Shown here: positions 29,616 through 63,922 of the stretch, one piece after another
How the letters are laid out: each line of letters starts with the position of its first letter
How positions within the stretch are numbered: the stretch's first letter is position 1
NCBI GenBank assembly: GCA_963924555.1
Contig: OZ004583.1
Coordinates: forward strand, 7,702,582-7,766,581
Reading direction: 5' to 3'
DNA from: Crambe crambe
Lineage: Eukaryota > Porifera > Demospongiae > Poecilosclerida > Crambeidae
Length of the DNA: 64,000 nucleotides
The notes under the pieces: generated by a model
The model's database searches: none
Told to the model about the DNA's origin: nothing
The model's input: only the letters and a program-made list of their open reading frames with translations
Made by a program: the position numbers and the translations under genes

Positions 29616-32600
29616 ATGAGTCATACAATACTCTCTACTATGTGTATCATCATCATGTTGACTGAGACTGTGAACTGTGAGTTTGTTTGTGTTAAGGTCC
29701 ACTAAACCACCTTACACTCTTATCAATTTGTACGATAGCTGTAATTCTCCTCTCAATGTTAACTTTTTTTGCTGACCAACACTGGCCAGTCATATTGATA
29801 ATCATAGCTCTACTTTTAGAGTCAAATATTAAGTTCTACTGGTTCTCCAATAATAGTGCAGGCTTTGTGGCACTCTTGTATAACTTCATTTTGCTAGTAG
29901 CTATGTAGCTCGATCTCATCTAACTTATGTCAACTCAACCTATCCTGGTTTCCCCTTTATCCACCCACTCCACACCCTCTCTCCTTCCCTCTCTACCCCC
30001 TCCCTCTAGCTGATCCAAGGTTTTATTTATCTGCTCCTTCTAATGAAACTTTCTGTCCTGGAAGAGTCACACTCACTTGTCGTGGCATTGAAGTACCTAG
30101 TCTGACTTGGGCAATTAATGACAGTGATCTAGCATCATTCTCAGACTATCGTCCTACACAACATTTACCGCTGACTCTGACCCTTATTAATCCAAGCCAT
30201 CTTACATCTGGTGTGCAAGTGCAGGTTAACAGTGTTAATCCTGATGAAAACAATCTCTCTTACAATATAACTTCCACATTGAGTGGTGATGCATCTCTTT
30301 TAAGAGGGTCAATCATAGACTGTAGACGTCTTCCATTTAATAGCAGTGATGTACATATTACAGATATCAGAGGTAGGTATACAATAATACATAGTGTGTA
30401 GCTATATGTGTCAAACAAGTAAATATTCTATCAATAGATCCTCCTCCTTCCCCTTCTTCTGCTACCTGTTCTCTTGTCCGCACTACTGAAGATCCAGAGG
30501 TTTCCATTCAGTGGTCCCCCTCCTTCACCTTTCAGCATAATGTAGAGATGTATCATGTAGTAGTGAACCCTGCCACCCCCTCCTGTTCTAATGATCAAAT
30601 GATAGTAAGTCTGTTCTTCACTTGTGCATGTGTAGCTAATTAACCCTTAAACTTTTCTTTCCTGTTTATGAAAGAAAGGATTACTTTATTGGCTACCTTT
30701 TCTAATATTGATTACTATGACAGGGTGAACACAGACATAATACTTAATAATGAGAACTGCCTATATTATGTAGCTTCTTTATGGGGCCCCTATAAAGTCA
30801 TAATTATTGCATGTGTCCAATGTATAAGCTACATCATTTTCAAGCATACTTTTATGTGGTTGAGACTCTAGGCCATGATTATCATAGGATGTGCCCCCTC
30901 TTGCAAAGAATGTATGGCTAGAGAATCTATATTATGTGAAGCCATTATGTGTCTTGGGTATTATCTTCATAGAGACGCAATGAGAGTTACAGTTGCTCTG
31001 GATTGGTCCTGGGGACACGCTACTCCTTCATTGTCAGTGCCATCAACTGTGGGAACCAAGAAGGGGCCAGAGACAATTTTACAGTCCAGTTACGAGGTAC
31101 CAAGAGTAGCAGAGTTCAAAGAATAATTTAAAATAGTAGTTAATATGCATGCATTTTTAATCATTGATGAGCTCAGAATTTGGGTTGGGTAGCATTTGCC
31201 TGCATGAGGTTATTATATTATGTACCATTATATTATGTAGTGGAACAGGTCAGGCCAGGCCTGACCAGGGTTTTTTTTAAGGTCAATTATTTAGTAACTG
31301 TCATTTTTATAACAAAGAAAGTGTCCTATGACACTTCAATGGTATACATATCAATTTTGGGCCTGTGACCAATCGAATTTTGCTTCCAACATGTCTGTCA
31401 GTACTACTGTGACAATACAGAGAGAGGTGAACTACAAAATTACTTATCATGCACACAGGTCCTGACATTTCGGTCTTGCCTGTGTATGATCAGAATGGAC
31501 AACTAAATGAGTTGACAGTGCAGTGGATGCAACAGGTTATAGCCATCATATGATGACGACTAATCACTAATTTTTCTTTCCTTCAGACACAATCCTTTTC
31601 TAATAGATGTTCCTTTAACCAACTCCTAAACTACACAGTTGTCCTGGAGGACAGCACAAGGGAGAGGGTGGATCAGAGGATGATTAACTCTGACAACTGT
31701 AGAAATAACCTCTGTTCCATATCCTTCCCTTTCTCCTTCTCAGATCAAACAGAGCAAAGTTATTTTGTCAGGGTTAATGTTACAGGAGCTTTTGGATCAA
31801 CTAGTATTTCCACATCTCTAAGTGAGTTGATTAGTTGTATATTTTTTTACTGACTTTTTTTTTTTTAATTTAGATACTTCCACCCTCTTTGATGCTTCCT
31901 TCTCCTCTGAGAGCTGTGTGACCTCTGTCCTCTGTTCCTACCCTATAAGGGAAGGAGTTTGCTCCTTCCAATATGGCCGTGACTCCTCTTACCAGGACCT
32001 CAGCCCTTCATTGTCTACCTCCCTCAATTCCCCTCTCCGACTATTATTTTTAAATCCTTCTACAATTCATTATTATCAGTTGACCATCAACACTTCTTCC
32101 CTTAACCTTCAGGTCAGAGGAAACTTCACTTCTGGTGAAGGTAAATTAGTTTATTTTTAAAGTGCACATAATCATGTTGGTGTGTGTAGGTGTACAGTTG
32201 ACATCTGCAAATCAAGGTCTGCTGGTTGTGGGTGTGATACTATTAAGTGTGGCCATTGTACTTGGAGTGATTATTACTCTGATGGTATTTAAGAAAGGTA
32301 TCATTCCCAACACTTTCTTGTTTTGTTATTACATTTTTTTTCTCCTCTAGGACCATGGCTATCTCTGGGTCTCTGTGTGGCAGGATTCGTTGTCACATTT
32401 GTATCTCTTGTGTTGTGGGTGGCAGTGGGATTCCATATTGGACTGCAAAAAAGTAAGCATTCTCTCAGGTTATAATTATCAATAATTAATTTTTGTGTAC
32501 ATGCAGATACATGTGATCCTACTTGGCAGTCTTCTAGAGATGGTCTCATAATTTTAGCACATGTTTTATCAGACGTCAGTCTCCTAATATTTGTGGCTGC

Positions 32601-33972
32601 TGGAATATATTTTACTGTAGATTATATCAGTAAGGAATATGTACAAAATTGATGTGGATTCTATTAGGACACATACATACATAGCTATTACTCAGATAAT
32701 TATTGTTATGATAGGAGGATTCTGATTCTCTTTCTCTCTATAATTACACAGGTTATCCCAACTACAAAAAGAGGAGTAGTGAGGTATGGATTGCATGCTG
32801 GATGCATTATCTTTTCATCCAGCTTACACTCTCCTAACGATCTATGATAAATTATTATCAGCATTAATAATGTACTATAATAATTATTATTGACTGTAGC
32901 AAATGAATTTATGGCAGAAATGTTTGCATAGAAGTTTACCGAATAGTAATCAGCACCAACCAAGAGAGAAAGACCGGGGAAATAATTTGGTAAATCTATT
33001 CTGTTATTCATATCATTGGTTATTCCTCTATTGTGAATATAGAAGGATATAAAACTAGAAGACTTGAAGGTTGGTGCAGGAGGGAGAGTGAAGGAGTTGG
33101 AAGAACTTAATACAGAAGGAGAATTCAAAAAACCAGGACAATCATCTATGGAAGCTGAACTGGAGTTAAAAGAAGGATATTATCAGGAATACAAGGATAA
33201 ACTTCCAACTGATGGAGTATGTAGAGTCATTTGTAGTGACAGTGTAGCTAGTTCCACTCTTTCATCATGTAGTCTAAAGAAGAGGAACCTGTCTCCAAGG
33301 GTAAGGGTGAAGACTCTCCCCTAGATCATGGGAAAGGGGGCAGTGGACACGGATATAAGGATAAACCAGCAAGAGAAAGTGGAGGAGGAGGAGGAGAGGA
33401 ATACAGTGCTCTCAATAATAGCAGGGTGTGAAAGTCATAATGAGGGAAAATATACCTATTACTTACGCATATTTTCCATTTGTGTATGTACTCCAGGCAA
33501 GTGGTGGGTCCTCACCTTCCCACTACCTCCCACTGGACCACAAGAAGGGAGGTAAAGGGGCTGGAAGTAAGGATAAGCCATCCAGTACCCAGGATGGAAG
33601 TGGGGAAGAATGCAGTACTCTGGTTAAGGTACCCAAGCAATGATAATGCCATTGTATGTAGTCATATCATCCATGCAGGGGAGTGGTAGGAAACCAGCAA
33701 AATCTTCATCTTCCCAACCACTTAAAAAGGAGGTAATTAAGTAACATACAGATGATTCAACATTTTAAAAATTAGAACAATAATGATCGAATCTTACAAA
33801 GTTATGCACATGCATACTTCCTCATACGTAGCATTACGTCCTTCCCACAGCTCTATATATTGAACTGTGAAAGTGGATGAGTAATCTAGGACTGTGTTTT
33901 TATTATAACCCAATTTCTTGGTTATTCTTTCTTCTGATTCAGGACAGAAGAGGTTCCAATGGGACTGGCTAG
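29616..33972 (+). CDS. Receptor gene A: signal peptide, Ig, two FN3, three TM, GS-rich tail (intact, 763 aa)
   Basis: Exons: 29616-29676, 30010-30372, 30438-30604, 30973-31096, 31459-31535, 31587-31821, 31874-32140, 32190-32297, 32351-32452, 32507-32629, 32752-32783, 32900-32989, 33043-33216, 33273-33425, 33497-33628, 33679-33732, 33943-33972. All phases agree and no stop interrupts the 763 codons. Domains: signal 1-20; Ig 21-141; FN3 142-238 (VSIQWSP, LGTRYSF, NCGNQEG) and 239-342; membrane-proximal 343-431; hydrophobic segments about 440-465, 470-498 and 515-538; tail 543-763. Three crossings put the tail in the cytosol. Tail exons 33273-33425 and 33497-33628 are diverged repeats (LDHGKGG / LDHKKGG; EEYSAL / EECSTL); YSAL is a YxxL-type motif that could serve sorting or SH2 binding. 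Receptor role inferred. Closest relative is gene B. Small tail exons are less certain than the rest. Confidence 0.82.
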
Positions 33973-37309: not shown

Positions 37310-40300
37310 TCAGTTTGTTATGTAGTCATACTCAGTGTGTTTAGTGTCCATGCCTTCATTGACATAATCTTCTTCATCCTTCACACCTCCATACACTACG
37401 TTCTTCTCCATCACTATCTCTCCATGACCATCACTCACACCATACACCTGGTTTGTCTTCATCTCTATGACACTGTCAGGAGTCTGGGAGGTGTTGATGC
37501 CATAAACCCGATTCTCGTTCATCTCTATCTTCTGATCTTTACCTGCACGTGGTGATCTCTAAGTTATGTAATGATCCATTGGTCAAATTGTCATGCATAT
37601 CAGCTTTTTGTAAGCGTTGAGCCAGGAACTGTTCTGAAGTCTATATAGCTAACTAGTATTGCAAAAGTTTACTACACTCTATAGATATTATAGCTACGTA
37701 TATACGTACGTAGATTTGTCCAAAGTTAGCAGTTATGAGAACCAACTTTATGGAGACTTGCTTTATCCCTTAGCTACACAATATTATTCTAACTGATCAC
37801 CTTCAGCAAAAACTAGTGCAGCAATTGCAATCAGGAGAGTGGTGTCTGAGAAAACATGTGCTGAGACGATGAGACTATTCCTAGTAGATTGCCAAGAAGC
37901 ATCACATGTATCTGCATGTACAAAACATTGCAGGGATTAATATTAGCTAGAATGCTTATTACTTTTTTGCAGTCCAAAATGAAATCCCACTGCCACCCAC
38001 AACACAAGAGATACAAATGTCACAACAAATCCTGCCACAGAGAGACCCAGAGATAGCCATGGTCCTAGAGGAGAAAACAAGACAACTGAAATAATCAAAT
38101 TTTAGTTGGCTATGCAAATGATACCTTTCTTAATTACCATCCAAGTAATGATCACTCCAAGTATAATGGCCACACTTAATAGTATCACACCCACAACCAG
38201 CAGACCTTGGTTAACAGATGTCAACCGTGCACCTACACACACCAACATGATATCATTATATTCTTTTAGGAACATACTAATTCACCTTCATCAGAAATGA
38301 AGTTTCCTCTGACCTGAAGGTTATGGGAAGAAGTGTTGATGGTCACCTGATAATAATGGATTGTAGCAGCATCTGAGACAGTTATTTGGAGAGGGGAATT
38401 GAGGGAGGTAGACAATGAAGGGCTCAGGTCCTGGTAAGAGGAGTCATGGCCATATTGGAAGAAGCAGTCTCCTTCTCTCATAGGGTAGGAACAGAGGACA
38501 GAGGTCACACAGCCCTCAGAGGAGGCAGTAACATTAAAGGAATCCGAAGATGGAATTGTAGTGTCTAAATCAAAATTATTTGGTAAAGGAGTGCTATCAT
38601 GCAAACAATCAACTCACTTAGAGAGGTGCTAGTTGATCCAAAGGCTCCTGTAACATTAATACTGACAGAATATCTTTGATCTGGTGAGGACAAGGGGAAA
38701 GATATGGAGCAGAGGTTATCACTGCAGTTGTTAGAGTTGATCATCCTCTGATCCACCCTCTCCCTTGTGCTGTTCTCCAGGACCACTGTGTAGCTTTGGA
38801 GTTCATTAAAGGAACATCTCTCTGATGGAAATTGCATCTAGAGGACAAAATTACAAAAATAAATAAACAAACAAACAAACAAACAAACGAAAACTACTGT
38901 AGATAATAAAGTTTCCACAGTAGCTAACTAACTTGTTGTATCCACTTTACTGTCAGATTCAGTTGTCCATTCTGATCATACAGTGGTGACACTCTAACCA
39001 CAGGAGTTAAAGGAGCTGCATAAAATATTTTATACTCATCAGCCTTTTCCTCTGCATCATGGACAATTATTATCAGTGGGAAGGAAATACTGCTCCTTGG
39101 TACAAACTATATAGACTCTGGGGTCGAAGTCTAAGTATGTTCACACCACTGACAGAATTTAAGACTGTTATACCTTGTGGGTGGACTGTGATAGTACTCT
39201 CAGCCCCTTCTTGGTTCCCACAGTTGATGGCACTAACAGTGAAGGAGTAGTGTGTCCCCAGGACCAGTCCAGAACAGCTGTAACCCTCACTTGGTCTCTA
39301 TGGAATTGAAATCCATCTAACTATATAGTAGACCAAAATAATAGTGAGAGATTATCAGGGATTCACCATCATCTGATCACTGGGACAGGAGGGGGTGGCA
39401 GGGTTCACTACTACATGATACATCTCCACGTTATACTGAGAGGTGAAGGAGGGGGACCACTGGATGGAGACCTCTGGACCTCCAGTAGTGTGGACAAGAG
39501 AACAGGTGGCAGAAGAAGGGGAAGGAGGAGGGTCTAGGACCATAATATTTACTTGTTTGACACATGTAAATAGAGCTAATGTGTACCTACCTCTGATATT
39601 CGTGATATGTATTGCATCACTCTTGAATGGAGTACGTCTGCAGTCGATGATTGACCCTCTCAGAAGAGATGCATCACCACTCAATGTGGAAGTTATATTA
39701 TATATAATTGGATTGTTTTCATCAGGAGTAACACTGTTAACCTGCACTTGCACACCAGATGTAAGACGCCTCGGGGAAATCAGCAGATTCAGTGGTAAAG
39801 GTTGCATAGGATCATAGTTTGAGAATGATGCAACATCAATATCATTAATTGCCCAAGTCAAACTAGGTGATTGAATACCATGACAAGTGAGTGTGACTCT
39901 TCCAGGACAGAAAGTTCCATTAGAAGGAGCAGATAAGGAAAACATTGGAACAGCTGGGAAGGGGGAAGGGAGGAGGTGGAGAATGGGTGGAAGGTGTGGA
40001 AAGTGGACATAGTATAGTTATCATAGTACTCTATACATACATCCTCATACTGGTGCTATGTCCTTTGATCTCCAGCCAAAAAAAATGTAACAAATCATTG
40101 TGCGTGCATAGCGTAAGCCGCCGATTATCTACCATACTTTGCCCCTCGCACCATATCTCCCTCACCGATGGTCGTCAAAGTCTCAAACAACAACTATAGG
40201 AAAGATAATTTCATCCTCTATAACGTCATAATAATTATTATAAATTATTTTTCTCACAATTGGATAGAAATTTTGCTATGCTGAATCTACTACGTCAACT

Positions 40301-42260: not shown

Positions 42261-43104
42261 GGCTAGACCACAAAACAAATTCAACCATCAATAACTTTAT
42301 TGGACAATTCTCTTCCAACCACTTTGAGCCATTATAGCTACATGTAGCTATGTATGACTCTATGTAGCTACTAGCTAAGCTCAAGTATAGTAAGTAGCTA
42401 GCTAGCAGCTACATAATCACAATCTCACCTATTTACATATTTGTAGCCAGGTCAGACTGTAGCTAAACTTTCATCTGATATGTACGTTGATTTAGCAGCT
42501 ATAGCTAGGCTGTTAGCTTTTATTGGGTTCAATCACTCAATATAGCTAGCTAATGATACTTTTACTTTATAAGGAACTGCTTCGACTCTCAAGGCCGGTG
42601 CCTATTATAAACACATATCACTCAACACATAATATGTACATCATGATACATATAAATATGTGTGGTAAGAACTAGTGTTGTTTTGCATACATTTTCTTTA
42701 GAGTACTGCATGGTTATGATAACTATACATGTAGCTGGTTATTTCCTCCTTTTAGTGTTAAGTTAGCTATGACCATGAGTTTGTCATGATTATTTTATAG
42801 TAGTTAGCTATTAGCCAGCTAGCTAGTTTCAGTATGTTTAACTAAAATTTGGACATTAGTTAAGTTTTTTTATAGAAGAATTTCCCTTTCAAGATTTTTA
42901 TCAGTCTTTTTTGTTTCCAGAACTTATCAATTTAGGATTACGTAGCTATAAATTTGTTTTCTTGGCAAACGGCTTCGTAAGGCACTAAAATTATAGTCCC
43001 ACAACATAAGGATGTCTAATTGCATGATACGATACTAATAGCATATAACACAAACTTGTAGTACACACAAACTTGTAGTGACTCTGATCAGTTGATTCAG
43101 TTGC

Positions 43105-46100
43105 TTATGTAGTCATACTCAGTGTTTTCAGTGTAATCCTCTTTGGGCTTATTACGTCCTCCATACAATATGTTCTTATCTCTCCACGTCCATGGAGGGC
43201 ATCACTCACACCATACACCTGGTTTGCCTTCATCTCTATGACATTATCAGGAGTCTGGGAGGTGTTGATGCCATAAACCTGATTCTCATTCATCTCTATC
43301 TTCTGATCTTTACCTGCATGTTTCATAACCACTATGTATGAAAAGGAGGTATCCCTGTAGGAACCTGATAAAGAAATTCACCAGGGCACAGCAAATTTCT
43401 TTGTTTCCTATTATGAAATATGCCATGCCCTTGTGTATCTTGCACTACTTCCCACCATATTTCCTTCAGAAAACACAAGGAAAATCTCATTTCTGGCCAT
43501 GGATGGAGGCCTTCCTCCCTCAAGTCTCTCATTGAAGGAAAGAGAGGAAGGCCTGGGAGGCTGTGTAGCATGCATGAACATTTTGAATGTGTTCGAAGCT
43601 ACTAGAACCATGCACCTTAAAAATGAAAATTGATCAGATCACCTTTAAACTTGTAAGCAACAGCAAATAGTCCACTAATAATTGTGATCAGGAAACTGAT
43701 GTCTGAGAGAACATGGGCTGAGATGATGAGACCATCTCTAGAAGACTGCCAAGAAGCATCACATGTATCCGCATGTACACATAAATTATTAATAATTATA
43801 ACCTGAGAGAATTCTTACTTACTTTTTTGCAGTCCAATATGAAATCCCACTGCCACCCACAACACAAGAGATACAACCAATCTTGTCATGGAGAGACCCA
43901 GAGATACCCACAGTCCTAAAGGAGAAAACAAAACTGATCATTGAGTCGGTGATGACTCGAATTATGGCTACCTTTTGTAAATATCATCGAAGTAATGATC
44001 ACTCCGGCCACACTTAATAGTATCACACCCACAACCAGCAGACCTTGATTTTCAGATGTCAACTGTGCACCTACACATAATAACACGATTTTTTATTACC
44101 ATAGTTATGAACTTCAAAAAATAAACTCACCTTCACTAGAAATGAAGTTTCCTCTGACCTGAGAAGAAGTGTTGATGGTCACCTGATAATAATGAATTGT
44201 AGCAGCATCTGAGACAGTTATTTGTAGGGGGGAATTGAGGGAAATAGAAGATGGAGGGCTCAGGTTCTGGTAAGAGGAGTCACGGTCATATTGGAAGAAG
44301 CAGTCTTCTTCTCTCATAGGGTAGCAGGGGTGTATCCACAGAATTTTGAGTAGCCCGGTGTGCTTGTGCGTGGGATCACCATGCCCACTTTATCCTTCAC
44401 CCACTTATCAGAAGGATGCTAATGTGATCATGATTCTTGAAGATTCATATAATCACTTAGCTAACTCTGCAGACATGGGATGAAATTATAATTATTAATA
44501 TTGGATAATAAAAGTGGTCCGGTGAAAACCGGACCAACCTGAGTGGTGGATACACCCCTGGGTAGGAACAGAGGACAGAGGTCACACAGCCCTCAGAGGA
44601 GGCAGTAACATTAAAGAAAGATGGGATGGTAGCGTCTAAATAATACTATCATGCAATCAATTAATCAACTCACTTAGAGGTGTGGAGGTGCTAGTTGACC
44701 CAAAGGCTCCTGTAACATTAATACCGATAAAATAGTTTTGGTCTTGTGAGGAGATGGGGAAGGATATGGAGCAGAGGTTATCACTGCAGTTGTCAGTGTT
44801 GATCATCCTCTGATCTACCCTCTCCCTTGTGCTGCCCTCCAGGACCACTGTGTAGCTTATGAGATGATTAAAGGAACATTTGAATCTGAAAGAGAAGAAA
44901 AAATACTGTATAGAGCTACGTAAAATCTTCACAGTAGCTAGCTAACTTGTTGCATCCACTTCACTGTCAGAGTCAGTCGTCCATGGACATTCTGATCATA
45001 CAGTGATGAAACTCTAACCTCAGGAGTTTGAGGAGCTGCATAAAACATCACTCATTCCTTTCCTTTTACATCATAGTTCTTACTGGGCACTCCTTCTTTA
45101 TACTATTACATAATTATACATTCCCTAGCTGCTGATAATAATTTCTAGTTACCCACCTTGGAGTGTTCATTGGTACCCATGCTAATTCTGGGGTGTGAGG
45201 GGTCAGAGTCTTGATATGAAATGTATTTCTGACATGATAAGTCCAATCAACCAAGCACTATGCATCAAAGTTCAAAGTTACTATTATACCTTGTGGGTGG
45301 ACTATCAACCCCTTCTTGGTTCCCACAGTTGATGGCACTGACATTGAAGGAGTAACGTGTCCCCAGGACCAGTCCAGAGCAGTAGTAATTCTTGCTGGGT
45401 CTCTATCATGATCATACAAAAAATTGTAGGGAGTATAGTAGCTATAGTTAATGGAGTTCTATGTATGTGGTTTTCCCAGTCGTGCATTAAAGTGCACCAT
45501 ATCAAAATTCATTTACTCCCATCATATTTTTCAGCTAGTGCATGAAAATAGCAACATGTATAGTGCTCAACACACAAAATCATAGTGTGTAAGAGACTCA
45601 CTATCATCTGATCACAGGAAGTGGTGGCAGGGTTCACTACCACACGATACATCTCCACATCATACTGCAAGGGGGACCACTGGATGGAGACCACTGTAAC
45701 ATTGGTTCTGAGGATAGAGCAGCTAGCGAAGGAGGGTTGAGGAGGGACTATTATCAAAGAGAAGATGAAGTTCTATAGCTATGGTACAAATATTATACGT
45801 AGTTACCTCCAATTTCTGTGACATTGAGCACTTCACTGGATATAAAACCACTATGGCACTGAATCATTGATCCTTTCATTACTACTCAATGTAGATACAA
45901 TATCAATAGCCAGTAGACTATTCTGGTTTTCAGAAGCACTGATGATCCTTACTTTCACACCCAGTAAGGAAGGATAGTTTGTGGAAAGGTATCGTTTAGT
46001 CCAAATAATTATAAGCTGCACAGTCAGGGCTCCGTAACAACCCAATGCCCACTGTGCTTGTACAAGTGAACTGAATTGGTCCAGTACAAATGGGTCCATT

Positions 46101-46130
46101 AGAGGGAGGGGAAGAAGTTAATGAGAGTTG
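43105..46130 (-). pseudogene. Receptor pseudogene E (Tyr-motif tail type)
   Basis: Exon remnants on the minus strand: Ig about 46128-45808, FN3 45747-45602 and 45402-45290, second FN3 45035-44947 and 44885-44674, membrane-proximal 44635-44131, hydrophobic 44070-43972, 43915-43823 and 43768-43643, tail 43313-43105. Lesions: stops and a frameshift in the Ig exon (near 45985 and 45880); an 11-base deletion in 45402-45290 that breaks phase; a MITE inside the membrane-proximal exon (44325-44560); the acceptor before the third hydrophobic exon reads GG instead of AG (43769-43770); and a frameshift in the tail so that LYGG...YDYISN lies in another frame. Two hydrophobic exons also lost 9 bases each. 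The Ig sequence is diverged from the other copies. No first exon was identified. Confidence 0.85.
44325..44560. mobile_element. hAT-like MITE inside an exon of pseudogene E
   Basis: Ends CAGGGGTGTATCCAC and GTGGATACACCCCTG, flanked by GGTAG on both sides (44320-44324, 44561-44565). The uninterrupted paralogues read CATAGGGTAGGAACAGAGG at this point, which proves the insertion and its 5-bp duplication. An inner hairpin GGTCCGGTGAAAACCGGACC lies near the right end. Confidence 0.93.
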
Positions 46131-47425: not shown

Positions 47426-47913
47426 CCGTAGTCACTGTAATTCAAGCGCCAGAAAATAATAATTCCATGTAGGCGTGGCGCTTAGCTTATGGCTTAAAAA
47501 ATGCACTTCCTCTGGGCGTGGCGCTTAAATTACAGTGGCGCTTAGTTAATTGTAGCTTATCTGGACTGCAAAAACGTGGAGATGGCTACTAGCAGTGCCA
47601 ATCACTTTCAGCTGTCATTCAGCAGTGTTGTGAGGGGATTTCACGTGTATCAGGCAGTTTGGACCCCAGTGCTCAATGCTGAATACCTAACACAGCAAGA
47701 ACATGGCAAAAAAGCTCTTGATGGAAGTCTGCTTGGACGATATCACCTCTCAAAAAAGCTGCTTCAATAATGACCACGTGGGTTGCATATATTTAAGCGC
47801 CGCCTAAAAATAATACAGGAAGAGGTGTGGCGCTTTTCTAACAACTAATAAAATGTGATTAGTTGCTAGCTGGCGCTTAAATTATAGTGGCGCTTGAATT
47901 ACAGTGACTACGG
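47426..47913. mobile_element. TA-flanked 488-bp element inside the Ig exon of gene B
   Basis: Ends CCGTAGTCACTGTAATTCAA and complement, bordered by TA on both sides (47424-47425, 47914-47915). Gene A reads GAAGTACCTAGTCTG across this point, so the site and the TA duplication are certain. The interior has several GGCGCTTA words. It lacks a transposase but carries a protein-like open frame. Confidence 0.93.
47576..47770 (+). CDS. Captured gene fragment within the TA element (HIRAN-like start?)
   Basis: The 64-codon frame contains FSSVVRGFHVYQAVWTPV followed by EYLTQQEHGKKALDG and GRYHLSKKLL. The opening (R-G-[YF]-H-x-Y-x-x-x-W-x-P) recalls an N-terminal motif common in cnidarian and sponge proteins with HIRAN-like folds, where a Glu-Pro/Asn-rich segment usually follows. 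Only the beginning fits, so this may be a transduplicated exon. Identity uncertain. Confidence 0.4.
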   Translation: MEMATSSANHFQLSFSSVVRGFHVYQAVWTPVLNAEYLTQQEHGKKALDGSLLGRYHLSKKLLQ

Positions 47914-50900
47914 TACCTAGTCTGACTTGGGCAATTAATGATAGTAATCTTGCAGAATTCTCAGAGTATGATCCTATGCAATCTTTACCACTTATTCTAA
48001 CCCTTATTAATCCAAGCAATCTTACATCTGGTATGCAAGTGTTGGTTAACAGGGTTAATCTTTATGAGAACAATTCAATTAATTTTGATATAACTTCCAC
48101 ATTAAATGGTGATACATCTCTTCTAAGAGGGTCAAAGATAAACTGTATTCGTAATCCATTCAGGAGTGAGCCAGTATATATTACAGATATCAGAGGTAGG
48201 TATATGCATTAGTACATAGTGTGTAGCTATGTATGTCAAACAAATTAATACTCTACCAAGACCCTCCTCCTTCCCTTTCTTCTGCTACCTGTTCTCTTGT
48301 CCGCACTACTGGAGGTCCAGAGGTCTACATCCAGTGGTCCCCCTCCTTCACCTCTCAGTATCACATAGAGATGTATCATGTAGTAGTGAATCCTGCCACC
48401 CCCTCCTGTCCCAGTGATCAGATGATAGTGAGTCTGTTTTTCATTTGTGCATGTGTCAAATAAAGAGGCAACCCTTAAACTTTTCTTTCCTGTGTATGAA
48501 AGAAAGGGTTACTTTATTGGCTACCTAATTACTATGACAGGGTGAACACAGACATAAGACTTAATAATGATGATAATGAGAACTGCCTGTATATATGTAG
48601 CTTCCTTGTGGGGCCCCTATAAGCTAATTAGCTACATCATTCAAGCATGCTTTGATTTTTTTTTATGTGGCAAGTTGGGACTCTAGGCCATGATGATCAA
48701 GGATGTACCCCACAAAGAATGTATGGCTAGAGAATCTTTTATCTAGCTATCATAGCTATGTATGTGAAGCCATTATGTGTCTTGGGTATTATTATTACAG
48801 AGACCCAGTGAGAGTTACAGGTGCTCTGGACTGGTCCTGGGGACACGTTACTCTTTCAGTGTCAGTGCCATCAACTGTGGGAACCAAGAAGGGGACAGAG
48901 ACAATTTTACAGTCCAGTTACGAGGTACCAAGAGTAGCAGAGTTCAAAGAATAATTAAATTTAAATAGTAGTTAATATGCATGCATTTTTAAACCTTTTT
49001 TATTATTCATTGAGCTCAGAATTTGGGTTGGGTAGCATTTGCCTGAGGTTATATATACCAGGCCAGACCAATATTTTGAGAAAAACTAGTTAATTATTGA
49101 TTATTATAACAAAAGAAAGTGTCTTATGACACTTGAATATGGCCTGGTGGTATTAAATTTTGCTTCCAATACCTCTGTCAGTACTGTGACTATACAGAGA
49201 GAGGTATAAAATTACTTGTCATGCATGCAGCTCCTGATATTTCAGTCTTGCCTGTGTATGATCAGAATGGACGACTAAATGAGCTGACAGTGCAGTGGAT
49301 GCAACAGGTTAGCCACATAGCTATGTAGTAGCTACAACCGATCACTAATTTTTCTTTCCTTCAGACGCAATCCTTTTCTGACAGATGCTTCTTTCGTCAA
49401 CTCCTAAGCTACACAGTTGTCCTGGGGGACAGCACAAGGGAGAGGGTGGATCAGAGGATGACCAGTTCTAACAACTGCAGTGATGACCTCTGTTCCATAT
49501 CCTTCCCTCTCTCCTTCTCAGATCAAACAGAGCAAAGTTATTTTGTCAGGGTTAATGTTACAGGAGCCTTTGGATCAACTAGCACTTCCACATCTCTAAG
49601 TGAGTTGATAAGTCATAAAATATTTCTTTACTGACTTTTTTATTTAGACACTTCCACCCACTTTAATGTTTCCTTCTCCCCTGAGGGCTGTGTGACCTCT
49701 CTGTTCCTACCCTATGAGAGAAGGAGACTGCTTCTTCCAATATGGCCGTGACTCCTCTTACCAGGACCTGAGCCCTTCATTGTCTACCTCCCTCAATTCC
49801 CCTCTCCTAATACCTGTCTCAGATGCTGCTACAATTCATTATTATCAGGTTATTCTCAACACTTCATCCCTTAACCTTCAGGTCAGAGGAAACTTCACTT
49901 CTAGTGCAGGTGAATTAGTATGTTGTATTTTTCTTGAAGTGCACATAATGATACGTACATGTTGGTGTGTGTAGGTGCACAGTTGACATCTGCAAATCAA
50001 GGTCTGCTGGTTGTGGGTGTGATACTATTAAGTGTGGCCATTGTACTTGGAGTGATCGTTACTTTGATAGTATTTAAGAAAGGTATCATTCACAAACACA
50101 ACTTCCTTGTTTGTTATTATTCTTGCTTCCTCAGGACCATGGCTATCTCTGAGTCTCTGTGTAGCAGGATTTGCTATAACATTTATATCTCTTGTGTTGT
50201 GGGTGGCAGTGGGAATTCATGTTGGACTGCAAAAAAGTAAACACTTTTGGGTTATAGCTAATTAAGAGAAAATCACCACTTTATGGTTTTGTGGTTTTTT
50301 TGTCCTTATACTTAATTTGTGTACATGCAGATACATGTGATCCTACTTGGCAATCTTCTAGAGATGGTCTCATAATTTCAGCACATGTTTTCTCAGACGT
50401 CAGTCTCCTAATATTTGTGGCTGCTGGAATATATTTTGTTGTGGATTATATCAGTAAGGGATATTAAATATCTAGGCCTAAGGGGAGTGCTTCACACCTG
50501 TCCAATGAATGAATCTCAAGAATGAATCTCTTTCACTCTATATATTTACACAGGTTTACCCAACTACAAAAAGAAGAGCAGTGAGGTAGCTATGGATTGC
50601 ATGCTGCATGCATAGATTCTGCTTTAATTATCCTCGCACACACTCGTCCTATTATAGCAATTATTATCAGGAATATGACATTAATTTTGCATTGACTGTA
50701 TAGCAAATGAGTTTCTGGCAGAAATGTTTGCATAGAAGTTTATCAAATAGTATTCAGCACCAACCAAGAGAGGAAGACTGGGAAGTAAATAAGCCGGCAA
50801 GTATTCTATTAGTTATGTCAATTGATTATTCCTCTGTTGTCACTCTATCTAACAGAAAGAAAAAAAACTAGAAGAGTTGGAGGTTGGAGCAGGAGGAAGA

Positions 50901-51976
50901 GTGAAGGAGTTAGAAGACGTCAATCCAGATAAATGCAGAAAACCAGGACAATCATATATGGAAGCTAAACTGGAGGAACAAGAAAGATTGTATCAGGGAT
51001 ACAAGGATAAACTTTCAACTGATGGAGTATGTAGAGTCATTTGTAGTGACAGTGTAGCTAGTCCCACTCTTTCATCATGTAGTCTAAAAGAGAGGGACCT
51101 GCCTCCAAGGGTATGGGTGAGGACTCTCATTACCGTCCCCTAGACAATGGGAAAGGAGGCAGTGGATGTGGACATAAGGACAGACCAGCAAGAGAAAGTG
51201 GAAGAAAAGTAGAGGAATACAGTGCTTTCAATAGTGGCACAGTAAGTGACTGATGAAAGTAACTCATGTCCATGGATGAATATAAGTACTACTCCAGGCA
51301 TTGCCAAATGGTGGACCCTCACCTTCCCACGATGAAGAGAAAGATCAACACTACCTCCCACTGGACCACAAGAAGGGAGGTAAAGGGGCTAAGAAGCCAT
51401 CCGGTACCCAGGGTGGAAGTGGGGAAGAAGACAGTGCTGTGGGTAACAGAAAGGTAAGGGAAAACCCAACCAATGGTGACAGTTAGTCGAGTCACCCTAT
51501 AGAGTGTTAAGAGGTGCTACTACGTATAACATACATATGGTACGTATGTTCTTCCGGTTCCATCCGGTGGGATACGGTGACATCATCAGTCACTCACTAC
51601 AATGTTTTGCACTTCCTTTCAGTGAGTAAGCGTAGCAAGTGAGCTGATTCTCAGGACATATCTAATTTAAATTGTTCTCCACATAATTATATAGTACACT
51701 CCAAAATACGTAACATATATACATACTTGTGCAGCTGCCTGCCACTTACATATGTATAACTCAACAGCAAACATTTGAAGCACAAATGAAATTGGTGCCA
51801 TTAAAGCTTTTCGGCTCTTAAAGTTATAGGAATTGTTGCTTGCTGTCAAATGTTGCAGTAAGGCAAGGCTAACGATAATGCCATTGTATATTTTTAGCAA
51901 CATAGCTATAGCTTATGTATACTAATCTCTCAGATATTTTCATGGTTATTCTTTCTGTTTCCAGGGAGGTGACTAA

Positions 51977-52970: not shown

Positions 52971-53389
52971 AAAGTGGAGGAGAATACAGTGGTCTCAAGG
53001 TAACCAATGATATATCATCTACGAAACAGCTAAGCAGCATAACGTGATGTGTGCAAGACATGTAGCTATGCCCCCTTTAATTAAAACAATCGATGTATTA
53101 TTATAGTGTACATAGCTAGCTAGCTATAATTATGAGGTTATGCATGAAGGATGATTAGCAAGGATGAATGTGGCCATGTGATAGCACTCTTTGTGTTCTC
53201 ATCTTAGCCATGATTATATCATGACATGACATGTAAGGAACTGAATTGCTTTGACCAGCTAGTGATTTTATTTAGTTACTTTAAAACAGCTTGAGTAGTA
53301 TATATATAGCTATAACTACGTACCCTGTCTTATCTATTACAGTGTATAGGTTGTACACAAACTTGTAGTATATATTATATAGTCACTCT
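52971..53389. other. No gene recognised
   Basis: AT-rich spacer with TAGC repeats (53110-53125); nothing coding seen. Confidence 0.4.
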
Positions 53390-54275
53390 TCAGTTGGTTA
53401 TGTAGTCATACTCAGTGTGTTTAGTGTCCATGCCTTCATTGACATAATCTACTTCATCCTTCACACCTCCACTCTTCTCCATCACTATCTCTCCATGACT
53501 ATCACTCACACCATACACCTGGTTTGCCTTCATCACTATGACATTATCAGGAGTCTGGGAGGTGTTGATGCCATAAACCCGATTCTCATTCATCTCTATC
53601 TTCTGATCTCTACCTGCATGTGCATGATGCCAGTCCAACGTAAAATCCCACTGCCACCCACAATACAAGAGATACAAATGTCACAACAAATCCTGTCATG
53701 CAGAGACTCAGGGAGAGCCATGTCCTATAGAGGAGCAACTGAAACAAAGTCTTAGCTACGTATGTAAATGATACCTTTCTTAAAATCTAATGGCATCAAG
53801 GTAATGATCACTCCAAATACAATAGCAACACTTAATAGTATCACACCAGACCTTGATTAGCAGATGTCAACCGTGCACCTACACACACCAACATCATTAT
53901 GTGCACTTCAAGAAAATACTAGCTTACCTTCACCAGAAGTGAAGTTTCCTCTGACCTGAAGGTTTAGGGAAGAAGTTGTGATGGTTGCCTGATAATAATG
54001 GATTGTAGAAGCATAAAAGAAAATTAGTCAGAGAGGGAAATTGAGGGAGGTAGACAATGAAGGGCTGAGGTCCTGGTAGCTATAGTATCATGTATGCTGC
54101 CTTGCTGATGGAGGGAGAATAATATGTATAGCTGCAAGCATAAACCCTTCCATATCATATGGTAGGTAGCTAGCTACCATTCAGAAGACAAACATCTGGA
54201 AGCCAATAGCTAATAAACCTTATACAAACTCACTGACAGTTCACAGTCTCAGTCAACATAAAAACAATGATAATA
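53390..54275 (-). pseudogene. Receptor remnant F (Tyr-motif tail, extracellular exons lost)
   Basis: From left: tail exon 53390-53613 with NRVYGI, NQVYGV and YDYITN; then, with the third hydrophobic exon missing, a second-hydrophobic-exon remnant at about 53630-53735 and a first at about 53776-53879 with deletions; a truncated membrane-proximal exon (53929 to about 54075); and a damaged signal-exon trace at about 54236-54275 (ACAGTTCACAGTCTCAGTCA). Ig and both FN3 domains are gone. The tail is nearly identical to gene D, but KNVVYGG is reduced to a single Gly-Gly without the Tyr. Confidence 0.8.
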
Positions 54276-54707
54276 ATTACAGCTATGTAGCTACATTAAT
54301 GATGACAATAGCCAGCTAAATTATGTACACAGAAAAACCTATAGCTATGGTGGCCATATCTAAATCTGCAGGTAGGAAACATGGGGCCACAGAGGCACAA
54401 ATCTATTGTCATGCTTGGGATTATTATAACTAGGCTGTACAATATCATGTGACATGACATGACTAATCAAAAATCCCCCTCTCATATACTTGTTGGGACT
54501 TGTATAAGATTAGCTAGAAATGAACACATTACCTTAAAGTGTTTGTGAGTTTATGATTAGCTATAACTATAACAAACAGGTTTATCAGACTGTTTTTCCT
54601 GCAGTGTACAAAACCTGTCTTCAAACTTTAATATGCATAATGCCACAAGATAGTATCCAATGGATGTACATCTAGCTACACTTGTAGTAGTCACTCTTAT
54701 CAGTTAT

Positions 54708-57700
54708 CTAATCTACATAGTCATACTCAGTGAGTTTAGTGTCCATGCTTTCATCCATATCATTCTTCTTGTCCTTCACAGGCTTACGTCTTTCATACAC
54801 CATGTTCTTCTTCATCACCATCTCTCCACCACCATACACCTGGTTTTCCTTCATCTTTATGGCATTGTCATTCTTATCCTTCACAGGCTTACGTCTTTCA
54901 TACACCATGTTCTTCTTCATCACCATCTCTCCACCACCATACACCTGGTTTTCCTTCATCTTTATGGCATTGTCAGAAGTCTGGGAGGTGTTGATGCCAT
55001 AAACCGGATTCTCATTCATACGTTTATCTACATGTAGTAGCATTCAAGTCACTTCACATATTTGATGGTGGGCAATATTTTGTTCAGTAGCTATTCAGTG
55101 TTAACTATTTTGGAGTCTATCAAGTCTTGCAGCAGTACTACGTAGTAGGTAAAGAGTTAGCTACACTAAGCATAGTGACATAAGAAGGTGTCTCGGGGCA
55201 AAATTTACGAGCCATCTGCAGGATATGGTCTCTCTCTGGAGATGGGGGAAGGGGGGGGGGGGAAGGGGGGCCCAAACTCTTATGCATGAGCAAAAATGAG
55301 AACTAACTTTATGGTGACTTCACCCCTTGCACACTTTTAACATTAATGGCTAATCACCTTTAAATTTGTAGTAAATAACAGCAAAAAGTAGCCCACCAAT
55401 TGCAATCAGGAAACTGATGTCTGAGAAAACATGGGCTAAGCTGATGAGACTATTGCTGGAAGATTGCCAAGTAGGATCACATGTATCTGCATGTACAATG
55501 GAATTAATAATAACCTGAGAGAACTGAGAGAATTAGCTATATTGATACTTTTTTGTAGTCCAACATGAAATCCCACTGCCACCCAAAATACAAGTGATAC
55601 GAATGCTACAACTAATCCTGTCATGGAGAGACCCAGAGATAGCCATGGTCCTACGTAGAAGAGAAGAAAACAAGTCTTAGTTACGTATTATGTGAATGAT
55701 ATGTACGTACCTTTCTTAAAATTAAATTTTATTACCATCAGAGTAGTGATCACTCCAAGTACAATGGCCACACTTAATAGTATCACACCCACAACCAGCA
55801 GACCTTGATTACCAGATGTCAACTGTGCACCTATACACACACACACACACACATATTATTGGCTATGTATGTTGTTACATGAGGACATTCTATTTCACCT
55901 TCACCAGAAATGAAGTTTCCTCTGACCTGAAGGTTAAGGGAAGAAGCGATGATGGTCACCTGATAATAATGAATTGTAGCAGCATCTGAGACAGTTATTT
56001 GGAGAGGGGAATTGAGGGAGGTAGAAGGGCTCAGGTCCTGGTAAGAGGAGTCACGGCCATATTGGAAGAAGCAGTCTCCTTTTCTCATAGGGTAGGAACA
56101 GAGGACAGAGGTCACACAACCCTCAGAGGAGAAGGAAACATCAAAGGAAGATGAGATTGAAGTATCTATCTCAAAAGTTATTATTTATAGCTACATATTA
56201 TGTTAAAATTCAACTCACTTAGAGATGTGATGGTGCTAGTTGATCCAAAGGCTCCTGTAACATTAATCCTGACAAAATAACTTTGGTCTGTTTGATCTGA
56301 GAAGGAGAAGGGGAAGGATATGGAACAGAGATTATTACTACAGTTATCAGTGTTGATCATCCTCTGATCCACCCTCTCCCTTGTGCTGTCACCCAGGACA
56401 ACTGTGTAGCTTAGGAGTTGATGAAAGGAGCATCTATCAGAAAAGGATTGTATCTAAAAGGGAAAAAAGAGGGCTAGTAATACATAGTAGCAACACACAG
56501 TGTGGCTAACTTGTTGCATCCACTGCACTGTCAGCTCATTTAGCTGTCCATTCTGATCATACACAGGCAAGACTGTAATGTCAGGAGCTGCATGCATGAT
56601 AAGTAATTTATCTCTTCACAACCAATACACTGTAAAATGAAAGTATTTACTGCACACCATTTTTGTCCCAATGCACACACTTAATTAATTAGTGTGCAGT
56701 AAACACTTTATAATGTAAGGTTACAAATGCTACCCAACCCAATTTCTTACGCTCAAAAGTGCATTCATATTAACTGCTATGCACAACTATGCTCTTTGAA
56801 CCCTGTTACTTTGGATACCTAGTAACTGGATCATAAAATTGTCTCTGCCCCCTTCTTGGTTCCCACAGTTGATGGCACTGACACTGAAGGAGAAGCGTGT
56901 CCCCAGGACCAGTCCAGAGCACCTGTAACTCTCATAGGGTCTCTAGAATAAAAAATAAACGAGAGAAGACAATAATTATATATAATGTAACAGGTATGCA
57001 ATTATCAATCACCAGAACTTTAGCTATAGCTCTCATTATACTTCATGCAAATGCCTAATTATAACACATCAGAGAGTCTCACTATCATCTGATCACTGGA
57101 ACAGGAGGAGGTGGCAGGGTTCACTACTACATGATACATCTCCACGTTATTCTGAGAGGTGAAGGAAGGGAACCACTGGATGGAGACCTCTGGACCTCCA
57201 GTGGTGCGGACGAGAGAACATGTAGCAGAAGAAGGGGAAGGAGGAGGGTCTATATCGATGAAATTTAATTTAGCTACTTATTTGACACACATACACACTA
57301 GCTACATACCTCTGATATCTGTGATATATATTGGCTCACTCCTGAATGGAAGACGTCTACAGTTTATCTTTGACCCTCTTAGAATGGATGCATCACCACT
57401 CAATGTGGAAGATACGTTATAAAAGAGATTATTCTCATAAGGATTAACCATGTTAACCTGCACTTGTACACCAGATGTAAGATGGCTTGGATTAATAAGG
57501 GTCAGATTCAGTGGTAAACGTTGTGTAGGATCATAGTTTGAGAATGATGCGAGATTACTATCATTAATTGCCCAAGTCAGACTAGGTATTTCAATGCCAT
57601 GACAAGTGAGTGTGACTCTTCCAGGACAAAAAGTTCCATTCATGGGAGGAGTGGAAGATAAGAAAAATAGTGGAACAGCTGGAGAGGGAGGAAGAGAGGG

Positions 57701-58080
57701 CATGTTAACATGTATGTATGTAACTAGCCAGCCACCAGGAGTTAGTCAAAAGATGCCAGAAAAATGCAGCTAACTAGCTATGGTATATTCATAATTATAG
57801 CATAAATTAAGTGAACAGACAGTGAAGCATTTTGTTATGTGATAGCTACTAGCTCATAGCTAGCTACTCATATCCATTTTCTGAATCTCTCTACTCTAAG
57901 AAATGTAGCTGATCTGAAGAATCAGCTAAAATATGTACGTATTAGCTACTATAGCTAATTATGTCCATTGCATCCATTGTGTATGTGCAGCTATATAATA
58001 AAGTATACCCAAACAAACTCACAGTTCACAGTCTCAGTCAAGATGAAGACAATGATGAGATTACATGTAGTAGAGAGCAT
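54708..58080 (-). CDS. Receptor gene G: signal peptide, Ig, two FN3, three TM, Tyr-motif tail with internal repeat (intact, 655 aa)
   Basis: Minus-strand exons: 58080-58023, 57678-57310, 57249-57083, 56942-56819, 56587-56511, 56453-56219, 56165-55899, 55830-55711, 55650-55549, 55486-55358, 55027-54708. Phases agree and all 655 codons are open. The start used is the second Met of the family (ACAATGCTCTC); the first is changed to ACA. Domains: signal 1-19; Ig 20-142; FN3 143-239 and 240-343; membrane-proximal 344-432; three hydrophobic segments to about 545; tail 550-655. The tail begins NENPVYGI and carries two copies of a 35-residue unit with KENQVYGG and KKNMVYERRKPV, ending EYDYVD. The extracellular exons are very close to gene C while the tail is of the other type, which points to recombination within the first-to-third hydrophobic exon region. 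Ligand unknown. Confidence 0.82.
54771..54980 (-). repeat. Tandem 105-bp duplication in the tail of gene G
   Basis: Two near-identical copies of 105 bases (35 codons), differing at only a few positions, double the VYG and VYE tyrosine motifs. Other tails of this type have one copy. High identity implies a recent event. Confidence 0.92.
56627..56718. repeat. Decayed foldback MITE in an intron of gene G
   Basis: Same sequence and position as 1570-1670 in gene C, with the right end eroded (TTTATAATGTAA for TTTTTACAGTGT). Confidence 0.75.
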
Positions 58081-58935
58081 TGTGTGACTTGTTTCTGCTA
58101 AATGAATTCATGAAGTACCAATTTGTATAACTGTTAGCTAGCTAAGAGATATTATGCCAGCCCCAAGCCGCCACGATGATTATCCTCACAAGCACAAAAT
58201 GTTGTGATAGGGTTACATAGGCTTTAAGTTTTGAACTACATAGTTATTTTTGGCTCATACATAAAAATTAATTGCTAATACATAAGTAGCTGTTCAGGAC
58301 ATACTATAATTATTATCATACAAGTATGCTAGCAGGCTATTATACAGAATGATTTGTTGTACTATAGCTATAATAATTATCATCTCACCTATTAATTTCA
58401 CAGCCAGGTCAGCTAATTAACTTTCATAGATACATTGATAGCTACAATGTATAATTGGCTATGATAGCTTTCAATTATGCATACAAATTCCATAGCTACA
58501 GCTAATCGATAATAATTTATTGTTTCATTCTGTAGATATCATTATAATCTCTATTTTTTTGACTTTATATGGAACTGCTTAGGGACTGCCAGTGGATTTA
58601 TAAACACACTATTCCTCTTAATAAAAATATTATGACAACACACGAGATAGATAGATAGCTAGCTAGCTGGTTAAAAGTGAACAGAGTGAGAGACAGAAAA
58701 TGGATACATTATAAATTAGCCATTATTATCATGCATGATGGTAGCTATGTATGATAATCATGCCATATGTAGTGTATGCTTTACGAAAAAAACATAGCTA
58801 TAGCTAGCTAGTACACATTTATTATCTGTAGGTTTTGTCTCTGTGGCATCAATAATTAAGACTCCATGTGGCTACGAGGTGGTGTTGCCATGTAGCCTCT
58901 GCTTCAACTTCATCATTGTCTTCTTAAAACCTGGT
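58081..58935. promoter_or_regulatory. Upstream region of gene G
   Basis: Holds the block shared with gene C (58146-58250) and the conserved block at 58380-58420 (CTCACCTATTAATTTCACAG, CCAGGTCAGC) also found near genes D and A. No coding exon is seen. Promoter function is inferred from position. Confidence 0.4.
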
Positions 58936-62085: not shown

Positions 62086-63417
62086 CTTTACAGTGAAGAT
62101 TACAAATGACTGACAATCCTATAAGTGCAAGACACAAGAAATTGATATCTGAACTAACATGGGCTCCAATGATGAGATAATTAAAGATATTCTGCAAGCG
62201 AGGAAGACATCTATCTGCACACACACATACAAGATTAACTAAATGACAACTTCATTAATAATTACTTGTCTGCAGTCCAAATACAACCCCTGCTGCCACC
62301 CACACAATAAGAGATCCTATCACTGAACCAGCCAAAAATCCTAAAATCAATCCATAAAATTCAAAAGCACGACTTCCTATGAAGAGTAAAAGGATGAAAA
62401 AGATTTAACTATTATTGTCTTAGCTAGCTATAGTTAATCAAACCTTCTTCAAAGAGAGGTAGAGTCACAATAGGACATAGTATTGTGAATGCTCCTATCC
62501 AGCATAATATTCCCACCGCCAGTAGACCTTTTTGAGCAGAAGTCGTATGAGGAGCTAGCAAATAAGTCATGTGATAAGTCACATGGTAGTATTATAGCAA
62601 TAGAGTATAGCTATTTGTGCACATGAAAAAAAAAACGAATAAGTTGTGACCAAACATTTTAGAAAGGTGTCCTCTATACAGAGGTTAAAAATCCATTATC
62701 ACTGTTATGATTGGTCCTCAATAAGTTGTCCTTTATTTAGAGGAAATCCTTTATTTAGAGGTTATCCTTTTATCTGGAGTATCCTTTATTTAGAGGAAAT
62801 CCTTTATTTGGAGTGTCCTTTATTCAGAGGTTTCTCTGTCTGTACATAGCTAGCTATCTAGCTACGCACCTTTTGCTGGAGTGAAGTTTCCTGTATGGAT
62901 TGAGTCAAAGAACGAGATGCAAGGAACTAAATGGACTGAAATTCGATAATAAAAGGTGCTGTCGCTCTCAACCAGTAAGGGTTCGTTGAAAGAGGTGTGA
63001 CGATAGGTGGTCCGATCATAGGGAGAACTGCCATACCGGATGACACATCCTCCTCCATCTTGAGGATAAGAGCAGAGGATTGAAGCTTTACAGTTCCCAA
63101 GGGATGTCAAAATAACTTTGAAGGATGATGGGACATAAACATCTGAGGAATTTAAAAATAGTTGTGGAGTTTTTCCCATCAACTACGTAACTAGTATAAT
63201 GCAACTCTTCTTTCAATACAAAGCTAGTAGCTATTATAGACACTGGGGGCATGCAGCCATTTGGTTAGGACAGGTTGTCCTCTCTTTGCATGGAGGTATC
63301 AACACTATGGGAAAGGGTAGGTTGTCTTTTCTATTGTATTCTCTTCCGGAAAGTGGAGGGTAATCGTCTATAGCAATGTAGCTCTAGTTAGCATGCAATA
63401 TTACCTAACACTCAAAA

Positions 63418-63452
<35 letters not shown>

Positions 63453-63922
63453 AAACCTTAGCTACGTAAATATCTCTTTATTAGCTAGAGTGTAAAAATT
63501 AGTTTTCCTAACAGACAGTTATAGCTAGCTAGCCCTAGTAGCAAATTAAAGTGCCATACCTCCAACCACATTGATGGTGTAGTTCTTACTAGAGCTACTT
63601 TGGGCACCACACTGTATAGTTGATCCTTCCAGTATTGAAGCATTGCCACTCAGTATCGAGACAGCATAAACCCTTGCTGAGTTGTTCTGGTCCAATGAAG
63701 CATTGATGAGCCTTGCTTCCACACCAGTTATGGGAGGGTTTAGGTTGATAGTCTGTGGGAAGGCATCATCGCTTTCATTTGCTCTGAATGTGTAGCGAAT
63801 GTCATTCACCTTCCAATAGAAGCCATTGACTGCATCACTGCCTGTGCATGTGAAATTGATCTCTTCAGCAGGACAGAAAGCTCCATAAGCAGGACTGGAA
63901 TCCAAGGACATTTGTGTAACAG
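62086..63922 (-). CDS. Divergent receptor gene H: Ig, membrane-proximal domain, three TM (partial)
   Basis: Minus-strand exons: 63922-63560 (Ig; FCPAEEINFTC, FYWKVND, GSTIQC), 63142-62870 (membrane-proximal; CKASILCSYP, IRYG), 62554-62444, 62376-62266, 62214-62086 (hydrophobic). Phases agree: the Ig exon ends in phase 1 and the next exon takes two bases, so Ig joins directly to the membrane-proximal domain. I found no FN3 exons in the 63143-63559 gap. Exon sizes equal or nearly equal those of the other genes, but the residues are much diverged, so H is an older branch. The signal exon should lie beyond 64000. The tail exon was not found; the donor at 62085 (GTGAGA) points left into the element at 58936-61889, which may have separated or removed it. 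Confidence 0.72.
62670..62835. repeat. Minisatellite of ~18 bp units in an intron of gene H
   Basis: Several imperfect copies of TCCTTTATTTAGAGGAAA / TTATCCTTTTATCTGGAG. Likely derived from a transposon end; no coding meaning. Confidence 0.8.
63418..63455. repeat. AAAT microsatellite
   Basis: About nine copies of AAAT between the membrane-proximal and Ig exons of gene H. Confidence 0.92.

Follow-up and report, generated by a model that had tools for sequence, protein, structure and literature searches.

A window of 64,000 bases from the genome of the demosponge Crambe crambe (Poecilosclerida), corresponding to positions 7702582–7766581 of the 9,494,484-base chromosome C5, contains eight related loci (C, A, D, E, B, F, G, and H) on both strands, which very probably belong to a clustered, diversified receptor family. 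The general plan comprises a signal exon, an Ig-like exon, two fibronectin-type units (FN3-1 and FN3-2), a Cys-rich exon, three exons with one transmembrane (TM) segment each, and a tail. A first-pass annotation of the sequence had already recognized eight loci, and all eight are present; seven of them lie inside the interval that it gave (29616–63922), but locus C is situated outside, at the left end of the window (up to 3177). It had also described states from intact to fragments, with broken copies and changed tails, and this picture holds: A is intact, C and G keep open frames, inserts and frame shifts disrupt B and E, F is a fragment, and two tail classes (A and G) occur. The exon model of gene A was built manually, directly on the sequence, and was transferred by alignment to B, C, D, E, F, and G. 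For H, the search covered the Ig, FN3, Cys, and TM exons. The loci and the exons of gene A are as follows.

29616..33431, + strand: gene A, intact, 14 exons; introns all GT-AG, open frame of 693 amino acids to the stop
29616-29676, +: A, signal exon
30010-30372, +: A, Ig exon; C15, C23, W33, and C104 invariant in 15 aligned family rows
30438-30604 and 30973-31096, +: A, FN3-1 exons
31459-31535 and 31587-31821, +: A, FN3-2 exons
31874-32140, +: A, Cys-rich exon
32190-32297, 32351-32452, and 32507-32629, +: A, TM1, TM2, and TM3 exons; one segment per exon, phase-1 introns on each side
32752-32783, 32900-32989, 33043-33216, and 33273-33431, +: A, tail exons
44..3177, - strand: gene C (locus L012 of the genome-wide set), 12 exons open as far as the window edge; class-A tail
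37310..39953 (end approximate), -: gene D, open in exons 2-10 and in its class-G tail (ending TEYDYITN)
43050..46117 (ends approximate), -: locus E, pseudogene; decayed Ig exon, insert in the Cys exon, class-G tail frame-shifted
46975..51252 (end approximate), +: locus B, pseudogene; insert in the Ig exon, short deletion shifting the Cys-exon frame, class-A tail
53310..54287 (ends approximate), -: locus F, fragment; partial exon 1, partial Cys exon, TM1, TM2, and class-G tail
54708..58092, -: gene G, 10 open exons, then the tail exon (about 55040-54708), in which NxVY recurs and the end is TEYDYVD
62086..63920, -: locus H, divergent; Ig 63920-63558, Cys 63143-62868, TM1-TM3 62552-62086, exon ends GT/AG

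The first exon of D was not found by the alignment-based model. In G, the codon aligned with the start codon is ACG, and an ATG is located four codons downstream. Locus H shows 31–37% identity and keeps its splice sites and all three membrane segments, and an FN3 match is absent in the approximately 415 bases separating its Ig exon from its Cys exon. The insert in the Ig exon of B (approximately 480 bases, about 47428–47912) has the inverted ends CGTAGTCACTGTAATTCAAGCGCC and resembles a miniature inverted-repeat transposon, and the insert in the Cys exon of E (approximately 237 bases, about 44324–44560), with the inverted ends CAGGGGTGTATCCAC, is also miniature transposon-like.

Domains and membrane topology

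The first-pass plan of signal peptide, Ig, two FN3 domains, Cys-rich domain, three single-exon membrane segments, and tail is retained for the signal, the Ig-like exon, FN3-1, the Cys-rich exon, the three TM exons, and the tail, but FN3-2 and Ig reach only sub-threshold matches. FN3-1 (exons 3 and 4) of gene A matches Pfam FN3 above the cut-off of 25 bits (27.9 bits, expectation value (E) 2.7e-6); the same unit scores 24.1 bits in G, just under the cut-off, and 34.3 bits in a relative on chromosome C9. FN3-2 (exons 5 and 6) gave sub-threshold matches in D to IFNGR1_D2 (0.0027) and Fn3_Dep-1_4th (0.019), with no Pfam match in A and no significant similarity to FN3-1 in a profile–profile comparison. 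The Ig exon contains a C23-W33-C104 core with spacings of approximately 10 and 70 residues, invariant, together with C15, in 15 of 15 rows, and the AlphaFold2 model of the Ig exon of A is beta-rich, with a mean predicted local distance difference test (pLDDT) score of 65.0. The identity of the Cys-rich exon with a known domain was rejected, as no Pfam match was found, the best PDB match had an E of 0.14 (Plexin-B1), and the comparison with the FN3-2 profile was not significant; its AlphaFold2 model (pLDDT 47.7) was too poor for a structure search.

Three hydrophobic segments exist in A, G, and H. The maximum 19-residue Kyte–Doolittle means of exons 8, 9, and 10 of A are 3.28, 2.62, and 2.37, respectively. 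In A, TM1 and TM2 are connected by a short turn that contains Lys, and TM3 is followed by Lys/Arg residues; hence, the N-terminus is likely located outside and the tail in the cytosol. A tetraspan identity of the CD20 or amastin type was considered for the membrane part and rejected, since the Pfam matches to Amastin (3.3e-4 in A and 0.038 in G, below the cut-off) and to CD20 (0.22) were too weak; the best PDB match of the membrane part (0.17, an ABC transporter) was likewise too weak.

Chromosomal cluster, exon classes, and phosphatase relatives

The genome search covered 119 contigs (143,139,886 bases) of one assembled haplotype, and genes outside the window were assembled from exon matches by distance. 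The Cys-exon query gave 132 matches at E ≤ 0.001, with a similarity far above chance, of which 129 are located on C5 within approximately 1.5 Mb (6,638,762–8,148,668), two on C9, and one, a fragment, on C3. The Ig and TM queries hit the same C5 region and the same two places on C9. After merging, the C5 matches form 124 Cys loci, including 64 close (at least 60% identity) and 60 distant loci. When paired by distance only, 53 of the 64 close and 39 of the 60 distant loci have an Ig exon at most 6 kb upstream on the same strand, leaving 16 of 101 Ig exons unpaired. The Cys exon is full and stop-free in 47 of the 64 close loci, as counted by hand from the match rows. Furthermore, 9 of the 14 locus pairs compared are 97–99.8% identical over approximately 0.9 to 3.3 kb, and several near-identical pairs stand at constant offsets of 84 or 92–93 kb, which suggests large recent duplications within the cluster. 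Relatives in bacterial or archaeal genomes or in viral contigs were rejected (15 and 23 stretches fitted a pattern, none of them confirmed).

Two classes of tails are combined with two classes of Ig exons in this cluster. Among the 30 best Cys loci, 12 carry tail A, nine carry tail G, nine carry neither within 1.5 kb, and none carries both. TM3 tracks the tail, its identity to that of gene A being 82–94% in class A and 56–71% in class G. The class-G tail contains repeated NxVY and ends in TEYDY[IV] in all nine loci. The pattern TxYxx[VI] is the consensus of the immunoreceptor tyrosine-based switch motif (ITSM), and TEYDY[IV] fits it as a motif match only. The class-A tail is Lys/Glu-rich; in nine loci, found by a search that needed EEY beside certain tail words and would miss copies without these, EEYS is followed by AL, VI, II, or AF, with the exception of L033 (EEYNNG), and HYxPL often stands approximately 24 residues earlier. 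A canonical immunoreceptor tyrosine-based activation motif (ITAM) was rejected for tail A, because its YxxL-type motifs lie approximately 24 residues apart (hand count) and the canonical spacing is shorter. The excerpted source on Botryllus co-receptors describes YxxI/L/V as a "core motif" (PMC12065747). At the right edge of the window and beyond (L039, C5:7764639–7768001), an open frame upstream of H is very rich in tyrosine motifs (TEYYNV, IYYDTV, NQVYG, and YDYVDE) and probably represents the tail exon of the gene that comes next on this strand.

The Ig exons are divided into the A type, as in gene A, and the H type, as in H, and all four Ig/tail combinations are present, in L012 (A, A), L009 (A, G), L018 (H, A), and L031 (H, G). 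Identities were compared among 20 genes whose Ig, FN3-2b, and Cys exons were all available, including one distant-subfamily gene that lowers the minima. The mean identity of A–H pairs is 40% in the Ig exon and 71, 71, 72, 75, 80, 82, 83, and 77% in exons 3–10; that of H–H pairs is 49% in the Ig exon and 68–81% in the other exons. On a tree of exons 3–8 from 19 genes, the Ig class switches at least two times, and placing all A-type genes in one clade is rejected (the log-likelihood falls by 38.86; approximately unbiased (AU) test p 0.0022). The tail class switches at least three times among the 13 genes labelled on this tree. Gene D, whose contiguous exons were modelled directly, possesses an A-type Ig exon, and its body groups with the H-type genes (support 92/93 and 86/87). 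The tree, together with the A-type Ig on the H-type body of D, suggests at least one movement of an Ig exon on the shared chassis.

The two relatives on C9 show the following exons, each set in order on one strand.

C9, relative 1: Ig 2721453, Cys 2722934, TM3 2724571, I-set 2724988, protein tyrosine phosphatase (PTP) 2726565
C9, relative 2: Ig 2949711, Cys 2951194, TM3 2952952, I-set 2953372, PTP 2954857

One of them, read through, contains Ig, FN3-1 (the 34.3-bit match given above), FN3-2, Cys, the membrane exons, and an I-set domain (58.0 bits), whose frame runs into a receptor-PTP-like start, as judged by eye where Pfam gave I-set only, with CSAGIGRTG further on. Judging from the exon positions, TM3 would be spliced to the I-set exon in these relatives. 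At two further loci on C9 and C13, the same I-set unit runs into a PTP-like start, and the ectodomain exons are FN3-like (by eye). Among the matches listed, I-set and PTP exons alternate densely on C9 (about 2.62–3.41 Mb) and C13 (about 3.54–3.87 Mb), an arrangement as of clustered receptor phosphatase genes, and further dense clusters of phosphatase exons are situated on C12 (about 0.07–0.38 Mb and 2.5–3.2 Mb).

Known systems and possible role

The first-pass annotation had matched the plan to no named receptor family; an outline match nevertheless exists in the fester receptors of Botryllus, in which, according to the excerpted sources, an Ig and a Sushi domain are combined with three membrane segments of one exon each (PMC12065747, PMC3549757). 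To the extent covered by these excerpts, the fester family (FF) of Botryllus schlosseri, with the fester co-receptors (FcoR), is the closest published parallel, sharing with the sponge genes a type I plan with a signal peptide, the outer Ig domain (Ig-like in the sponge), and the three one-exon TM segments. Fester forms a polygenic cluster with gene-content variation, and the sponge family is likewise clustered; the FcoR tails carry Y-x-x-I/L/V core motifs, and the sponge tails also carry tyrosine motifs (PMC12065747, PMC3549757). However, fester combines Ig and Sushi with a short tail, whereas the sponge genes possess Ig, FN3, an FN3-like unit, a Cys-rich exon, and a long tyrosine tail of their own; Pfam gave no Sushi match in A or G, where FN3 and the Cys-rich exon stand instead. 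Polymorphism and function have been shown for fester, whereas the sponge family is known here from genome sequence alone, and the two are compared by published plan rather than by sequence. As the sponge family is without Sushi and has long tyrosine tails, it is not classed as fester. The earlier proposal of an undescribed system thus stands in part: no description of the sponge family was found in a search limited to openly licensed papers, and the terms "immun" and "allorecognition" are absent from the main text of the Crambe crambe genome paper (PMC12166358), but the plan itself parallels fester.

Hydractinia Alr resembles the sponge cluster in its clustered, diverse Ig-superfamily genes, many of them likely pseudogenes, and candidate Alr genes are reported with ITAM or inhibitory (ITIM) motifs in the excerpted sources (PMC11067881, PMC11999971, PMC12065747). 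Alr1 and Alr2 are single-pass, whereas A, G, and H of the sponge have three hydrophobic segments, and the Alr complex comprises at least 41 loci against approximately 124 in the sponge; an FN3-FN3-Cys-three-TM chassis is not mentioned for Alr in these excerpts. With respect to the receptor tyrosine phosphatases with Ig/FN3 ectodomains, the two C9 relatives have I-set and PTP exons downstream, whereas the window genes end in tyrosine tails, with no Pfam match to a PTP catalytic domain in A or G and none on C5 among the matches listed. Receptor tyrosine phosphatases usually have one membrane segment, whereas the window genes have three. In sponges, the aggregation factors, the Ig-TIR receptors, and the Geodia Ig-domain receptor kinase are described, in excerpts, as candidate or known recognition or immune proteins, the last two with Ig domains. 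The domain plans of all three are different, and Pfam gave no TIR or kinase domain for the window proteins tested; aggregation-factor domains were not searched by name.

Taken as a whole, the cluster is best explained, at a middling level of confidence, as a birth-and-death family of recognition receptors with phosphotyrosine signalling, probably in self/non-self discrimination. The component of recognition with phosphotyrosine signalling is rather probable, and self/non-self (allo)recognition as the main role is the tentative first choice among the roles. A variable outer domain on a less variable stalk, more than 100 clustered loci with broken and fresh copies, two tail classes combined with two Ig classes, and tyrosine tails alongside phosphatase relatives are expected of paired recognition receptors. 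The earlier suggestion of an immune or allorecognition cluster is thereby strengthened by the locus number, the variable Ig exon, and the two tail classes, but the role itself is still a matter of inference. In the proposed mechanism, the ligand of the Ig domain would be variable and most likely a protein on the surface of the neighboring cell, perhaps the same or another family member, and the receptor would pass the membrane three times, placing the tail in the cytosol. Phosphorylation of the tail tyrosines by kinases would be read by SH2 or PTB proteins and opposed by the phosphatase forms. With many receptors compared at contact, self might be told from non-self, as by paired receptors in Botryllus, Hydractinia, and natural killer cells.

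Several observations weigh against this reading. The assignment of the Ig exon as Ig rests on sub-threshold matches; a Foldseek search with its structural model gave nothing at E ≤ 0.001, and none of the top VIA matches was an Ig domain. Between A–A pairs, the Ig exon, at 75% identity, scarcely exceeds the other exons (73–85%) in divergence. The tree is weakly resolved, with 3 of 16 inner branches well supported, and these branches alone need at most one change of Ig class. The ratio pN/pS was calculated from 27–33 unique copies per exon with at least 55% identity and at least 90% coverage of the exon of A, excluding H-type Ig. It amounts to 0.73 in Ig, 0.37–0.51 in the FN3 exons, 0.53 in Cys, and 0.75, 0.57, and 0.53 in the TM exons; one tail exon, with 14 copies, gave 0.71. 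The Ig value is the highest among the ectodomain exons, but its bootstrap interval (0.56–0.98) is not separate from those of FN1a, FN2b, and Cys (spanning 0.36–0.77 together). Moreover, the ratio is below 1 for every exon, windows above 1 also occur in FN2b and Cys, and TM1 is similar to Ig. Positive selection on the Ig exon is therefore not demonstrated; the ratios below 1 indicate coding constraint. The variation measured is that among paralogues, from which variation among individuals does not follow. In addition, the tail tyrosine motifs are short, and the distant-subfamily locus L048 contains three tail open reading frames with NxVY but without TEYDY.

A role as innate immune receptors for microbes or symbionts, in which the Ig domain would bind foreign surfaces and an arms race would drive the copy number with no conspecific function, is the second choice and somewhat unlikely. 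Such an arms race is consistent with the cluster size, the turnover, and the broken copies, and in the excerpted sources on other sponges, Ig- and FN3-containing genes respond to microbial molecules and the SRCR and NLR families are expanded (PMC8242945, PMC6208332); however, Pfam gave no known microbe-binding domain in the proteins tested, and the plan is closer to that of published allorecognition receptors. Less likely still, as the third choice, are ordinary adhesion or cell-sorting receptors, whose isoforms would mark different cell types or positions in the body of a single individual. Adhesion molecules typically have ectodomains of Ig and FN3, receptor phosphatases that carry such ectodomains function in adhesion, and phosphatase relatives do exist in this genome, but the broken and near-identical copies would be unusual for developmental adhesion genes. 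A mostly neutral tandem expansion of duplication-prone DNA under relaxed constraint, with few functional copies, is improbable, for although three of the eight window loci are broken, a fourth (D) is without a located first exon, near-identical duplicates are present, and ratios of 0.37–0.75 could partly represent relaxed constraint, the open Cys exon is kept in most close loci (47 of 64), the divergent H retains its splice sites and membrane segments at 31–37% identity, the terminal motif is kept in every class-G tail, and all ratios are below 1.

Historecognition is documented in sponges (PMC12018476, in excerpt). How allorecognition works in invertebrates is a mystery according to a 2025 review, as excerpted, with candidate proteins not conserved across sponges, cnidarians, and ascidians (PMC12065747). 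The locus mapped here, which combines a variable Ig exon with tyrosine tails and has phosphatase relatives, offers concrete genes for tests of self/non-self recognition in sponges and a direct point of comparison for fester and Alr. It is a long shot that the cluster represents a sponge histocompatibility complex, that is, a germline-encoded, combinatorial locus of more than 100 genes with Ig exons and signalling tails (of two tyrosine classes and a phosphatase class) shuffled on a three-pass chassis, which would share descent with tunicate fester. If so, this kind of self-recognition receptor would be as old as animals, and the view of separate origins would change.

The remaining features of the window are situated between and beside these loci. 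A near-perfect palindrome (34874–35322) has 220-nt arms, 99% complementary, with a spacer of 9 nt, and direct repeats, several of them spaced 251 nt apart, extend downstream of H (60365–61801). Two long open frames, 4852–6123 (-) and 6540–7559 (+), are alike by eye and look like the remains of a repeat element, neither giving a Pfam match at E ≤ 0.01. A weak sub-threshold match to the C-terminal part of a hAT transposase (E 0.0008) is located at 28428–28733 (-), and a tRNA-Ser (TGA) gene at 9369–9442 (-).

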